A stretch of 64,000 bases of DNA. Origin: Psychrilyobacter piezotolerans (lineage in GTDB: Bacteria > Fusobacteriota > Fusobacteriia > Fusobacteriales > Fusobacteriaceae). The notes beneath the pieces were generated by a model, which saw only the letters and a list, made by a program, of their open reading frames with translations, was not told the origin of the DNA and made no database searches. The first letter of the stretch is position 1. The number at the start of each line of letters is the position of its first letter. Positions 53,319-59,160 of this stretch are shown here, piece after piece. The position numbers and the translations under genes were made by a program. The DNA lies in assembly GCF_003391055.1 (NCBI RefSeq), contig NZ_QUAJ01000001.1:124001-188000 (forward strand). The letters run 5' to 3'.

Positions 53319-56300
53319 ATGAAAAATTTGAATTCAAAGTCCCTTGCTATCCTCCTATTTTGTGTTGTTCAAACATCCTTTGGTGCAAACGACATAAATA
53401 AAGCGGCTTCAGCAGGGCTTTTTTCGACTGTAAGTGATATAAGTAAAGTTAGCACCTCCAGTGATGGTACTGCTATCTCCAGCGAAAGTTTAGTTATCGA
53501 CACAAAAAACGATACCCTGACAGCTGATGGCGGGGTAAAGTTTCAATACCAGGGCTTAAAACTCCAAGCCTTCGGATTTAAAAGGGATAGGGAATCAAAC
53601 ATAGTTACTGCTACTGGGGATGTCAGGATCCAAATGGGAGACTACCCTAACCAGGCCAGGATCGATTCCAATAAAACCCTTCTTTCATTGGACAGCAGTA
53701 CCTTAAAATACTATGACAGTATATCCTATATGGAAGTAGGTACAGTAACTGGTGCCCAAGCTCCCAATGACAGAATATACTTTGGCGGGGAAGTAGGAGA
53801 ATATAATGAAGAAGCTTTTACCCTGAAAAATGCCTGGTTTACTACCGACTTTAGTATCTTAGAGACTGGGGATTATAAGAAGGGAGGGTATTACCTCGGG
53901 GCTAAAAAATTAAAAATTATACCGGATAATAAGGCTGAATTCCAGGATATCGACCTATTTATAAACGATTATAAGGTAGGCTGGTTCCCATGGTATGCAG
54001 TCAATATCAGACAGGGTTCCAAGGTACCGCTTTTCCCTGTTTGGGGAGACAGTACCGATTATGGATTTCATATATCCAGCGGTATAAACTATGGAGATAA
54101 TGACAGTAAGTACTTTAAAGGTGGTATAGCTCCTAAATTTGCCGACAAGCTGGGACTCTTAGTTGGAAGGTTTGAAAACTGGTATGACCTGGGAAATTAT
54201 GGACAGGGCTTAGTTACTGCCGATGATCTGTTGGTAGTAAAAAAAGATAGTTCTGTCGACGATAGATGGGACCTGGCTGCCAATCATGAATATAAAGATG
54301 ATAGTGGTTACCTGAAGTTAGGACTGCAGAGTACAACAGTAAATAAGATAAGTGCTTTAGAAGATCATAGAGATGATCTTGAAAGAAGTGGATTCTATGA
54401 CCCTACCAGCCCCAACTATGGGGGGGAGGAAAGAAATGACGGTGAAACCATTAATTTCATCACCTTGGATTCTGAGTTTGAAGATATAGGGGAAAGAAAT
54501 GATATCACCCTTTATTCTAAGGTTAAGATGTTAGCTGGAGGAGAGGATGCCTACAGACAATTAGTAGATGACCGAATGGACGATGCCTCTTTTGGTTCCC
54601 AGTTAGATAATAAATTATACACCGATCTCGGGTTCACCAAAGATAACGAAGATTATATGATATCTGCCTACTACGACTATCTAAAGGATCTAGACCCCGG
54701 TTCTACATCTAAGGCAGACGATGACCAGTCCAGGCGTGAAAATTTCGGATTTGCGTTCAACCTAAAGGAAACTAAGATAGACTTTGCCTACGATCATGAA
54801 AGGGGAGATAAACTGAGAAAACTCAGATCTTGGGAACGTAGTCCCGATTTAGAGGATATCACAAGACTTCAAGGGGGAAGTATAAACTATGTTCCCTGGT
54901 CTGTATATGAATACGATAAAGATGACAGCGATAAGATCAGACTACACCTTGGAGAATATGATCTGGGCAGCAGCGGAGCAACCTATAAGGTTAAGTTTGA
55001 CAGTCTTCAATCTGAAAAGGAATTAAACCTGGATAATGATCCATTTAGGGAAACTGCACAGTCAAACAATCCCGACTTTAACAAAAGGGATCAGCAGTAT
55101 AACAAGGAAGAGAATATTATCTACAATAAAAACAGGGATGATAAGGTTGCAACTGAATTTTTCTATGATCAATATAGATTGGAACTTACCTTGGGGCACT
55201 CCAAACAAGAGGTCTGGGACAGGGAAGGTATATATAATTACAATGAATTAGAGGAAAATGATGCCTATAATATCTATATCAACGAATCTGATTTTGTCCA
55301 AATTGAACTGGAAGATAAAAGACTTCACCTAGGTTACTTAGGTGAAATGGGGTTAAGATATAATCTGAGATACGATGATTATACAGATGGGTACGACTCC
55401 TATTCCGGTGATAACAGCGGCGGAGACTCCTCTTTAAGGCACCAGGTGGACTTCAATCATAAACTTACCCTATTGGATAACACCAACAACCATTTTAGAA
55501 ACCTGGACTTTAAATTAAACAATGAATTTAATTATTTTGGCCAACTTTACTCCTATGACAATGGAAGCCGTAATGGTGATTCCACATATAATGGACAGGT
55601 CAGGTTAAAGAACAAGGACAGCATCCATGAATTCAAAGACAAGGTTACATTGGATCTCGGTAACACTACAACTGTCTACAGTACCGGATATAAACAGAGT
55701 AATGACGGCTTTGACAGAGATGTGAAAAGAGGGGATCTCTTTACCAACAACATCGATTTTTTAGTCAACGATGAGAAAAAATTGAACCTGTACTATGATC
55801 TGGATAAGAGGTTTACCCGTGGGGAGCTTACCCCTGCCGGCTATGCCTTTGACGATGAATATAATGACCTTACCAGCAATAAATTCGGTGGTAGTTATTA
55901 TATAAATGAAAGTTACAGGTTCTATTACAGCCATGAAAAAATTGATTACACCCTCATGGAATCTCAAAATATTCCTACTACCGATCCAAACTATAACTAT
56001 GGTGCCCATGAAAAAATATCGGAAAGTACCTATGGATTGGAGATAAAAGATGAGCTGGATCTCTATAACCTTACATATACCCATGCTTCCGATGACAGAG
56101 AAGATAACAATATGGATACTTTAAATATTAAAAATGATGTTATCGGTGCCAGTTATTTAAATGGCGGAGAAGTAGAACACTTCTATCGTGCTACCTACGG
56201 GATATATAAATATGGGCCGTCTCAAAATTTAAAGGATTATTCTGCAGATCAGGTTTCATTTAAATATGAATACAGGGACAAAAGATTTACCGATGAAGAA

Positions 56301-56978
56301 TTAAGGAGTTATGCCGCAGCTGAGTATAATAAAGGCAAGTTAGAGATCACACCGGCCGAGATAAGCCGGGTGAAACAGATCTTAAATGAGAGAAATGACA
56401 ATCAGCTGGACTTTAGTTTAAACTCTATTATGTTAGAAGAGATGAATCGTCCTGAGTATAAAAAATACTTCACCCTTTCCCTCATGGCGAAAGTACATAG
56501 GGAAGCCTATGACCAGAGTAATGATTTTTTTGGAAGTTTAAAGGAATTCGAAGGAGATGTTTATGGGTCATATAAAAGGTTTGGCCTGGGATATAAATAT
56601 CGCGAAGAAGCCAATTTTAATAGCAGTTATGACAGGGATATCACCAAGCAGGAGCACGAATTCAGGCTCCGAGCCGGGATAGGAAAACCCAGTCAGGGGT
56701 GGAACATAAAATTATCCTATAAAACCGAAATTGACAACGATGATGAATACGGTATCTATCTTGGAAAGGAGACGGGATACTATGAATGGTCTGTTGGGTA
56801 TACCAAAGATTACGACAGAACTACCAAATCATATGACGATCGTTTAGCTCTTCAATTTACTCTGCTTACATTCCCAGAAAATCCTCTCTTGGGTATCGGA
56901 TACAAGGATAAAGATGGAAGTATGACTCCTAAACTATGGCTTGGCAGCGGAGTAGAGGTAGATGAACTAAACAATTAA
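53319..56978 (+). CDS. lptD: LptD-like LPS assembly outer-membrane protein
   Basis: 1219 residues. A signal peptide (about 1-22, cleaved near SFGA) is followed by an OstA/LptA-type jelly-roll at about 50-140, seen in SESLVIDTKNDTLTADGG and TATGDVRIQ. The rest is Tyr-, Asp- and Lys-rich with many alternating strands, and ends in a strand (TPKLWLGSGVEV), as in a large outer-membrane barrel. LptD inserts LPS into the outer leaflet. It is much longer than E. coli LptD (about 780), through extra barrel or loop strands. Only two Cys exist at the signal peptide and none later, so the disulfide control known in E. coli cannot operate. GGGGAG precedes the ATG, and no terminator follows. Confidence 0.8.
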   Translation: MKNLNSKSLAILLFCVVQTSFGANDINKAASAGLFSTVSDISKVSTSSDGTAISSESLVIDTKNDTLTADGGVKFQYQGLKLQAFGFKRDRESNIVTATGDVRIQMGDYPNQARIDSNKTLLSLDSSTLKYYDSISYMEVGTVTGAQAPNDRIYFGGEVGEYNEEAFTLKNAWFTTDFSILETGDYKKGGYYLGAKKLKIIPDNKAEFQDIDLFINDYKVGWFPWYAVNIRQGSKVPLFPVWGDSTDYGFHISSGINYGDNDSKYFKGGIAPKFADKLGLLVGRFENWYDLGNYGQGLVTADDLLVVKKDSSVDDRWDLAANHEYKDDSGYLKLGLQSTTVNKISALEDHRDDLERSGFYDPTSPNYGGEERNDGETINFITLDSEFEDIGERNDITLYSKVKMLAGGEDAYRQLVDDRMDDASFGSQLDNKLYTDLGFTKDNEDYMISAYYDYLKDLDPGSTSKADDDQSRRENFGFAFNLKETKIDFAYDHERGDKLRKLRSWERSPDLEDITRLQGGSINYVPWSVYEYDKDDSDKIRLHLGEYDLGSSGATYKVKFDSLQSEKELNLDNDPFRETAQSNNPDFNKRDQQYNKEENIIYNKNRDDKVATEFFYDQYRLELTLGHSKQEVWDREGIYNYNELEENDAYNIYINESDFVQIELEDKRLHLGYLGEMGLRYNLRYDDYTDGYDSYSGDNSGGDSSLRHQVDFNHKLTLLDNTNNHFRNLDFKLNNEFNYFGQLYSYDNGSRNGDSTYNGQVRLKNKDSIHEFKDKVTLDLGNTTTVYSTGYKQSNDGFDRDVKRGDLFTNNIDFLVNDEKKLNLYYDLDKRFTRGELTPAGYAFDDEYNDLTSNKFGGSYYINESYRFYYSHEKIDYTLMESQNIPTTDPNYNYGAHEKISESTYGLEIKDELDLYNLTYTHASDDREDNNMDTLNIKNDVIGASYLNGGEVEHFYRATYGIYKYGPSQNLKDYSADQVSFKYEYRDKRFTDEELRSYAAAEYNKGKLEITPAEISRVKQILNERNDNQLDFSLNSIMLEEMNRPEYKKYFTLSLMAKVHREAYDQSNDFFGSLKEFEGDVYGSYKRFGLGYKYREEANFNSSYDRDITKQEHEFRLRAGIGKPSQGWNIKLSYKTEIDNDDEYGIYLGKETGYYEWSVGYTKDYDRTTKSYDDRLALQFTLLTFPENPLLGIGYKDKDGSMTPKLWLGSGVEVDELNN

Positions 56979-56986
56979 TAGACTTT

Positions 56987-57015
56987 TTGACATTTTGAAC
57001 TAAATATGTTAGAAT
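56987..57015 (+). promoter_or_regulatory. promoter of the thrS leader
   Basis: TTGACA, spacer exactly 17, TAGAAT. The RNA would start near 57022, about 30 bases before the leader ORF. Confidence 0.85.
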
Positions 57016-57050
57016 TTTCAGATAATAATATTTCAGCAGGAGCTTAGACT

Positions 57051-57089
57051 ATGAGATTACTTACCACCACAACGGATACTTTTTTTTAG
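57051..57089 (+). CDS. threonine-rich leader peptide of thrS
   Basis: 12 codons and TAG: MRLLTTTTDTFF. Five of twelve codons are Thr (ACC ACC ACA ACG, then ACT), and four are consecutive. AGGAG lies 8 bases before its ATG. It lies between a strong promoter and a terminator ahead of the threonyl-tRNA synthetase gene, just where an attenuation leader such as thrL of the threonine operon should be. Ribosome stalling on uncharged tRNA(Thr) would report threonine shortage. The ORF is seen; its use is inferred. Confidence 0.8.
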   Translation: MRLLTTTTDTFF

Positions 57090-57102
57090 GATTTGTAAAT
57101 AT

Positions 57103-57145
57103 ACAGATCTTATTTCCCTTGTAAAATTATAAGTTTTGTATCTGT
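57103..57145 (+). promoter_or_regulatory. leader hairpin overlapping the antiterminator arm
   Basis: ACAGAT-CTTAT (57103-57113) can pair with ATAAG (57129-57133) and ATCTGT (57140-57145) leaving a 6-base bulge. The right arm contains GTATC (57138-57142), which also complements GATAC inside the leader ORF (57075-57079) and GATAC in the terminator (57178-57182). Mutually exclusive structures are thus possible. Confidence 0.55.
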
Positions 57146-57164
57146 CTGGAATGAAAAAATATTT

Positions 57165-57201
57165 AACCCATCTAGATGATACTCTAGGTGGGTTCTTTTT
57201 T
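57165..57201 (+). terminator. attenuator terminator before thrS
   Basis: Stem AACCCATCTAGA-TGATAC-TCTAGGTGGGTT, 12 pairs with one G-U, then C and six T. It ends 45 bases before the thrS ATG and after the leader ORF, with no gene in between for it to end. Confidence 0.85.
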
Positions 57202-57246
57202 GTAAAAAAAATTATATTATATAAAAAACTGAGGAGTGATGTAAAG

Positions 57247-59160
57247 ATGATTAAGATAACTTTACCAAGCGGGGATATCAAAGAATTTGACAGCCCGGTA
57301 AATATGTTTCAAATTGCCAAAAGTATAAGTAATTCACTGGCTAAAAATGCTGTAGCAGCTAAGGTCGACGGAAAATTAGTGGATATGGCTACAATGCTTA
57401 GCGAAGATGCTGCTGTGGAACTTATCATGCCTAACAGTGAAGAGGGAATAGAGATCATCAGACATTCCACTGCACATCTTATGGCTCAAGCTGTAATCAG
57501 ACTTTTCCCTGAAACTAAAGTAGCCATAGGACCGTCTATCGAATATGGATTCTACTATGATTTTGATCCTAAAGAGCAGTTTACAGAGGATGATCTGGCT
57601 AAGATCGAAGCTGAAATGAAAAAAATAGTCAAGGAAGATATCATTATAACTAAAGAAGATATCTCCAAAGAAGATGCTATAGCAAGATTTAAAGAAGCAG
57701 GAGAGGACTATAAGGTAGAGATTATTACTGATATTGCACAAGGAGCTCTTACTCTTTATTCCCAGGGTGAATTCACAGACCTATGTCTTGGACCTCACGT
57801 ACCTTCTACTAGATATTTAAAATCATTTAAACTTATGTCGGTAGCCGGTGCTTACTGGAGAGGAGATTCTTCTAACAAGATGTTACAAAGAATTTACGGT
57901 ATAGCCTTTGACTCAGATAAAGCATTAAAACTTCACCTGAAATTCTTAGAGGAAGCTGAAAAAAGAGATCATAGAAAATTAGGTAAGGAATTAGATCTAT
58001 TCTTCATGAGTGAATATGGTCCAGGATTCCCATTTTGGTTACCAAAGGGAATGGAATTGAGAAACGCACTGGAAAACCTTTGGAAGTCAGAACATAGAAA
58101 GGCCGGATACCAGGAAGTTAGAACTCCTATCATGCTTAACAAGGAATTATGGGAAACTTCTGGTCACTGGTTTAACTATAAGGAAAACATGTACCTTTCT
58201 GAAATAGATAAACATGAATTTGCTATAAAACCTATGAACTGTCCTGGAAGTGTTTTAGTATACAAACACGACTTACACTCTTATAAGGATTTCCCTATTA
58301 GAATGGGTGAATTAGGTATCGTACACAGACATGAATTCTCTGGTGCATTACACGGATTATTCAGAGTTAGAAACTTTACACAGGATGATGCTCATATCTT
58401 TATGACTCCGGATCAAATCGAAGAGGAGATCATAGGAGTTATCAACTTAATCGATAAATTCTACAACAAGTTATTTGGATTTGAATACCATATCGAACTA
58501 TCTACTAAACCTGAAAAGGCTATTGGATCGGATGAGATATGGGATAAAGCTGAATCAGCACTAGAAGGAGCTATGAAAAAAATTGGATTAGATTATAAAT
58601 TAAATCCAGGAGACGGAGCATTTTATGGTCCTAAGTTAGACTTCAAAATCAAAGATTGTTTAGGTAGAGAATGGCAGTGTGGAACTATCCAGCTTGACTT
58701 CAACCTTCCTGAAAGATTTGATATGAACTATATTGGAGAAGACGGAGAAAAGCATAGACCAGTTATGGTTCATAGGGTAGTTTATGGTTCAGTTGAAAGA
58801 TTTATCGGAATCTTAATTGAGCATTTTGCAGGTGCATTCCCGCTATGGCTGGCTCCTACACAAATAAAATTACTGACTCTAAACGATGAAGTAGTTCCAT
58901 ACGCTAAGGAAGTTATGGCTGAATTAGCCAAAGTTGGAATCAGATGTGAATTAGATGACAGAGCAGAAAAAATAGGATATAAGATCAGAGAGGCCAACGG
59001 TCAATACAAAATCCCTGTACAGCTTATCCTAGGAAAAGCTGAGGCTGAAGCTTCGGAAGTTAATGTAAGAAGATTTGGTTCAAAAGACCAGGAAACTATG
59101 AAATTAAATGATTTCATTTCTATGATCGCAGAGGAAGCAAAGGTAAAATTTGATAAGTAA
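57247..59160 (+). CDS. thrS: threonyl-tRNA synthetase
   Basis: 637 residues from MIKITLPSGD, with GAGGAG upstream; the frame is open for 37 codons more but that part lies over the attenuator. TGS domain (1-63), editing domain with HSTAH at 73-77, class II core with motif 2 FRVRNFTQDDAHIF and motif 3 GSVERFIGILIEH, Zn ligands including MNCPG, and the C-terminal anticodon domain. It charges tRNA(Thr) and edits Ser-tRNA(Thr). Controlled by the leader just upstream. Confidence 0.97.
   Translation: MIKITLPSGDIKEFDSPVNMFQIAKSISNSLAKNAVAAKVDGKLVDMATMLSEDAAVELIMPNSEEGIEIIRHSTAHLMAQAVIRLFPETKVAIGPSIEYGFYYDFDPKEQFTEDDLAKIEAEMKKIVKEDIIITKEDISKEDAIARFKEAGEDYKVEIITDIAQGALTLYSQGEFTDLCLGPHVPSTRYLKSFKLMSVAGAYWRGDSSNKMLQRIYGIAFDSDKALKLHLKFLEEAEKRDHRKLGKELDLFFMSEYGPGFPFWLPKGMELRNALENLWKSEHRKAGYQEVRTPIMLNKELWETSGHWFNYKENMYLSEIDKHEFAIKPMNCPGSVLVYKHDLHSYKDFPIRMGELGIVHRHEFSGALHGLFRVRNFTQDDAHIFMTPDQIEEEIIGVINLIDKFYNKLFGFEYHIELSTKPEKAIGSDEIWDKAESALEGAMKKIGLDYKLNPGDGAFYGPKLDFKIKDCLGREWQCGTIQLDFNLPERFDMNYIGEDGEKHRPVMVHRVVYGSVERFIGILIEHFAGAFPLWLAPTQIKLLTLNDEVVPYAKEVMAELAKVGIRCELDDRAEKIGYKIREANGQYKIPVQLILGKAEAEASEVNVRRFGSKDQETMKLNDFISMIAEEAKVKFDK

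Follow-up and report, generated by a model that had tools for sequence, protein, structure and literature searches.

A threonine-codon leader upstream of thrS in Psychrilyobacter piezotolerans very probably acts as a ribosome-mediated transcription attenuator

The window analysed here is a 64,000-nucleotide stretch of the Psychrilyobacter piezotolerans genome, and all features of the thrS locus described below lie on its forward strand. It contains thrS, which encodes a threonine–tRNA ligase of 637 amino acids (57247-59160; TIGR00418, 732 bits) and is preceded by the ribosome-binding site GAGGAG at 57231-57236. The next ORF upstream (53319-56978), putatively lptD-like as judged by eye only, ends 9 nt before a promoter, TTGACA-17-TAGAAT (56987-57015), that matches the consensus at 11 of 12 positions. 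This promoter is followed by a second ribosome-binding site, AGGAG (57038-57042), and by a 12-codon ORF, MRLLTTTTDTFF (57051-57089), with the codons ATG AGA TTA CTT ACC ACC ACA ACG GAT ACT TTT TTT TAG. Five codons specify threonine: the run ACC ACC ACA ACG at 57063-57074, which we regard as the putative regulatory codons, and one more at 57078-57080. Between this ORF and thrS lies a 12-pair intrinsic terminator (57165-57201), with its stem at 57165-57194 and a T tract reaching 57201; one such structure was found, and 0.2 were expected in shuffled sequences. A promoter-like site between terminator and thrS is absent from the window's own genome, referred to as G000 in the genome comparisons.

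The RNA between leader ORF and terminator can adopt alternative structures. Directly after the stop codon, hairpin A (57090-57109) pairs a strand A5 (57090-57097) with a strand A3 (57102-57109). A3 doubles as the left arm of a second stem, P1 (57103-57145; 57103-57113 with 57129-57145), an anti-antiterminator that coincides with the P1 of the Rfam family RF04312. The right shoulder of P1 is in turn the left arm of an antiterminator (57138-57150), whose right arm (57171-57182) lies within the 5' arm and loop of the terminator. This duplex has a predicted stability of about -14 kcal/mol (p 0.003 against shuffled spacers). A first-pass annotation of the locus, made from the letters alone, had already described the promoter, the ribosome site and Thr-rich ORF, the 12-bp terminator with T-tract, the antiterminator and a GTATC (57138-57142) able to pair with either of two GATAC sites, and all of its coordinates proved right. 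The early hairpin that it had placed 14 bases past the ORF stop does exist (57103) but is P1 itself; the one that is conserved begins 0 nt past the stop, at 57090, and competes with P1. Its remark that no T-box motif is seen was borne out, with no covariance-model match to RF00230 at the leader up to an E value of 5. The Rfam Thr_leader model likewise matched neither the locus, at E values up to 5, nor any of 13 related loci, at E values up to 10, and no other Rfam family matched the leader convincingly.

For 98 Fusobacteriota genomes, we oriented and compared the regions upstream of thrS, using as a specificity control a search for short ORFs with four of five identical residues, run for all 20 amino acids. 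Thr runs occurred in 12 genomes of five genera, compared with four genomes for Ser and one each for Gly and Gln; threonine alone among the amino acids is enriched upstream of thrS. In the genus of the window, the ORF reads MRLLTTTT[D/N]TF[F/I] (G000, G055, G056, G057, G059 and G061); elsewhere it reads MNSYMIKSTTTTSTTS (G054), MLYGVFF[D/H]TTTTLTN[K/N] (G042, G043 and G044), MLGYFSSTTKTTI (G045) and MFKITTTTTNTFYRFGLVR (G048). G040 and G041, which represent a weak sixth genus, carry MNKFINIQITYTAK with two Thr codons only and an unchanged architecture. The peptides diverge outside the Thr run, and the Thr codons of G042 and G044 differ by synonymous changes only. In one alignment, the thrS spacers and the His spacer reached a mean column identity of only 56%, too low to support a covariance model.

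The remaining parts recur with similar regularity. The ORF stop and the terminator are separated by 75-101 nt in every thrS leader, a promoter with 11-12 of 12 consensus matches sits at the equivalent position in four of the six leader-bearing genera, and a hairpin begins 0-3 nt past the leader stop in five of the six, the equivalent stem of G048 starting inside the end of the ORF. Pairing of the antiterminator left arm with the terminator 5' arm is found in all genera, at -9 to -15 kcal/mol. The first-pass annotation had read the locus as having the layout of ribosome-mediated attenuation and had suggested an alignment of related thrS leaders, which bears it out: Thr codons, terminator and antiterminator pairing are retained in other genera, while peptides and RNA differ.

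The same annotation had named relatives without the ORF as evidence against its reading. Many such relatives exist, including one of the window's own genus (G058). The leader is lineage-restricted, being missing from Cetobacterium-like, Fusobacterium-like and Leptotrichia-side genomes; in leaderless genomes thrS mostly starts a few tens of bases past the preceding gene. In G058 another gene lies upstream of thrS, reflecting either a rearrangement or a misassembled MAG; the thrS upstream region of G060 ends at a contig end. The threonyl-tRNA synthetase of the window is 91-97% identical to those of seven genomes of its own genus and 77% identical to those of Cetobacterium genomes, which places the genome in Fusobacteriaceae. 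Two leader-bearing genomes have promoter-like sites past the terminator, a near-consensus TTGAAA-17-TATAAT between attenuator and thrS in G045 (L094 3465-3493) and a further site in G057; the switch would be bypassed in these cases.

All leader parts, their conservation and their capacity for alternative structures are established. Based on these observations, we propose that the leader very probably works by ribosome-mediated transcription attenuation, through which the supply of charged tRNA-Thr would set the expression of thrS; the order of events is predicted from folding, and ribosome stalling and the effect on expression are predictions too. The short ORF, which has a Shine-Dalgarno sequence and five Thr among 12 codons and is conserved in five genera, would be translated into the leader peptide; an intrinsic terminator separates it from thrS; and folding predicts a mutually exclusive antiterminator that responds to ribosome position, weakly so for some species. 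The first-pass annotation had left undecided which hairpin a stalled ribosome blocks, and the best answer appears to be a chain of five segments, in which A5 would be covered once a ribosome has reached the stop codon. Transcription from the promoter at 56987-57015 would yield a leader RNA carrying the ORF. When tRNA-Thr is uncharged, the ribosome would stall on the Thr run and leave A5 exposed; A5 would then pair with A3 and block P1, the antiterminator would form and RNA polymerase would continue into thrS. When threonine is plentiful, the ribosome would reach the stop codon and cover A5; A3, now free, would form P1 with 57129-57145 and so take the antiterminator strand, whereupon the terminator would form and transcription would stop before thrS.

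We examined this model by folding the leaders with the ribosome footprint masked. When a ribosome placed on the Thr codons masked the ORF, the predicted probability that the spacer sequesters the terminator 5' arm was 0.47-0.96, compared with 0.01-0.46 in free RNA; G057 was an exception, with 0.66 already in free RNA. Shuffling the spacer abolished this change in most genera (p.047 for G000,.007 for G054,.033 for G044,.233 for G045,.007 for G048 and.013 for G040). Combining one representative per genus gave a Fisher p of 1.3e-5, or 9.5e-5 when G042 replaced G044; G056, G042 and G045 were individually not significant. When the modelled ribosome was shifted from the Thr run onto the stop codon, the probability of P1 rose in 10 of 11 thrS leaders, from 0.01 to 0.39 in G000 and from 0.03 to 0.61 in G042. 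Across 41 leaders for Thr (thrS), His, Pro and aromatic amino acids, the gain in P1 exceeded that obtained with shuffled A5 (Wilcoxon p 0.001, an optimistic value because the leaders are related). The A5-shuffle test was not significant for G000 alone (p 0.18) and ran in the opposite direction in G057; neither G057 nor G056 showed a clear effect in the folding tests. At equilibrium, the antiterminator probability in G000 was 0.69 both with the ribosome stalled and with it at the stop, so that discrimination in this genome would rest on kinetics.

The most serious competitor keeps the attenuator and changes its order of events. Here, the Thr-codon strand (57072-57079) would pair with 57138-57145 unless masked by a stalled ribosome, as in the classic order, and the hairpin after the stop would serve merely for pausing or insulation. 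We consider this possible, if rather unlikely. ORF-spacer duplexes occur in all genera, they are strong in G048 and in G040/G041 (p<0.004), and ORF masking releases the antiterminator in the folding calculations. However, the duplex, which the first-pass annotation had proposed and which does exist in the window, is weakly supported there (p 0.18 in G000) and is likewise not above chance in G042 and G045 (p 0.87 and 0.51), and a change from GGATAC to AAATAC weakens the pair in G057. Moreover, the part that the thrS leaders have in common with His and aromatic leaders is the A5/A3/P1 layout. The two pairings may also act together, and in G048 and G040/G041 pairing of the Thr-codon strand with the antiterminator strand may add to the effect of the chain.

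The proposed chain through A5, A3 and P1 also connects thrS to RF04312, the trpB motif, which was published as a strong riboswitch candidate of Firmicutes and Fusobacteria its authors noting that they could not exclude a classic attenuator (PMC11109978). The window matches this family weakly at 57100-57203 (29.4 bits, E 0.08; gathering score 59), and four further g1 thrS leaders match at 30-36 bits in equivalent position and strand (G056, 36.3 bits). As in the published description (PMC11109978), P1 and an intrinsic terminator are present in the window, and the right shoulder of P1 holds the antiterminator. None of the loci examined reached the gathering threshold, the best scoring 58.0 bits, and scans of 395 and 391 genomes from two classes returned no match above the cut-off, although the second scan, owing to its stricter limit, also failed to recover a sub-threshold case that was already known.

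A codon-run ORF preceded by a Shine-Dalgarno sequence lies directly 5' of the RF04312-like RNA at 27 of 30 loci in Fusobacteriota and 43 of 53 in Clostridia and Bacilli. The 83 loci are related and hence not independent, and one of the 43 (G117) was discounted as its upstream Pro-rich fragment resembles the end of a normal gene. Comparable ORFs occur in about 0.6-1% of shuffled sequences. The runs, of His, aromatic, Leu or Pro codons, often fit the gene behind them: HHHHH ahead of hisZ in Clostridioides difficile, HHH ahead of hisS, FFFSFF ahead of a sodium-dependent transporter, PIPP ahead of putP, FWYFYYF ahead of DAHP synthase and WQSHW ahead of TrpX. Phe/Tyr-rich leaders precede BrnQ-like carriers in Clostridia (L381, L395, L397 and L401), at odds with the family name; this suggests that these carriers move aromatic amino acids.

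A different reading of the same RNA would have a metabolite or a protein control the terminator, as a riboswitch of the kind proposed for the trpB motif or through autorepression by the synthetase, with the ORF incidental. The weak matches of the g1 thrS leaders to RF04312 (29-36 bits) point this way, as does E. coli thrS, which is autorepressed. Yet the Thr run is retained although the RNA has diverged beyond good alignment, and RF04312-like loci follow ORFs with varied, often gene-fitting codon runs, none of which a ligand-binding RNA would need; we therefore regard this reading as very improbable. That an ordinary terminator of the upstream gene lies behind a chance ORF, with thrS constitutive, deserves almost no credence: many relatives do carry thrS directly after the upstream gene with no leader, but a near-consensus promoter stands ahead of the terminator in most leaders, and the Thr-specificity control together with the recurrence across genera had already made it unlikely.

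A scan of 2.02 Mb of the 3.36 Mb own genome for ORFs with a Shine-Dalgarno sequence and a codon run, followed by a terminator and a downstream gene, placed the attenuator proposed for thrS among several similar leaders. Ahead of asnA (TIGR00669; G000:C13, L291), MFKLIMISNNNNNNNNNNNNMRGFVDR contains 12 consecutive Asn codons and is followed by a terminator. Trp runs precede trpE (MIRITWWWKS...) and trpS (VSKGFTWWWKN..., with a GTG start), asd follows MYIKNMMTTIITLT, and a gene for an amino-acid ABC substrate-binding protein follows ...TVHHHHHR. The asd pathway leads to Met, Thr and Ile as end products. The RF04312 search added a leader, MFNQMFAIRHHHHH, ahead of hisZ. As background, the scan returned some fourteen more candidates with no fitting gene, and matches at dapF and leuA were dropped as they showed no fitting codon run. 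Several Fusobacteriaceae genera have poly-Asn leaders ahead of asnA, and three have Trp leaders ahead of trpS. A single T-box match turned up in this genome; it scores 72.5 bits, below the cut-off, and precedes an asnS-like gene (L210:3246-3421, G000:C28), so that one amino acid would be read by two RNA sensors, a 12-Asn leader at asnA and a T-box at the asnS-like gene. Leader-peptide attenuators would then constitute a broad amino-acid regulon in Fusobacteriaceae, thrS included.

Taking these loci together, we think it likely that a widespread attenuator design exists in Fusobacteriota and Clostridia, consisting of codon-run ORF, A5, P1 and terminator with exchangeable runs (His, Phe/Tyr/Trp, Leu, Pro, Thr or Asn), that the thrS leader represents one of its branches, that the trpB motif is its downstream half and no riboswitch, and that the substrates of uncharacterised transporters can be read from the leader codons. 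The reading of RF04312 as half an attenuator applies to the sub-threshold RF04312-like RNAs of these groups and would be an extrapolation for the whole family.

Most known leader-peptide attenuators come from Proteobacteria, Actinobacteria and a few bacilli. Among aminoacyl-tRNA synthetase genes, such control has been described for pheST, trpS and leuS (PMC1262725), for hisS paralogues of bacilli (PMC2965389) and for cysS (PMC8632094). In the literature searched, neither thrS attenuation nor leader peptides of Fusobacteriota were described; the 2010 survey by Lopatovskaya et al. (cited in PMC4833913) may list related predictions. The class of mechanism is known; the sources searched contain no precedent for the target, the phylum, the arm after the stop codon or the connection with an orphan riboswitch candidate. 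Compared with the synthetase attenuators of gamma-proteobacteria, Streptomyces and Rhodobacterales and the hisS/hisZ leaders of bacilli, the thrS leader shares with the pheST, trpS/leuS, cysS and hisS/hisZ systems a codon-run peptide and a terminator before a synthetase gene, but differs in phylum, in synthetase and in having its alternative strand A5 past the ORF stop. In Firmicutes, thrS is under the control of a T-box, which senses charged tRNA-Thr by way of a terminator, and for Fusobacteria none was reported in 2008 (PMC2494555); the thrS leader described here would sense the same signal by the same kind of output, but has no T-box. With the enteric thr and his attenuators (Rfam Thr_leader and His_leader) it shares runs of Thr or His codons and mutually exclusive hairpins, but its target is a synthetase and not biosynthesis, and the Thr_leader model does not match it even at E 5. 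The enteric his attenuator, like the chain proposed for the thrS leader, uses more than four segments. With RF04312 it shares the succession of P1 and terminator and an antiterminator located on the right shoulder of P1, whereas it scores 29-36 bits against a gathering score of 59, and RF04312 was published with no leader ORF. This comparison offers a direct, testable answer for the trpB motif as an orphan riboswitch candidate, and the leader codons offer a route to predicting the substrates of NSS, BrnQ-like and ABC transporters.
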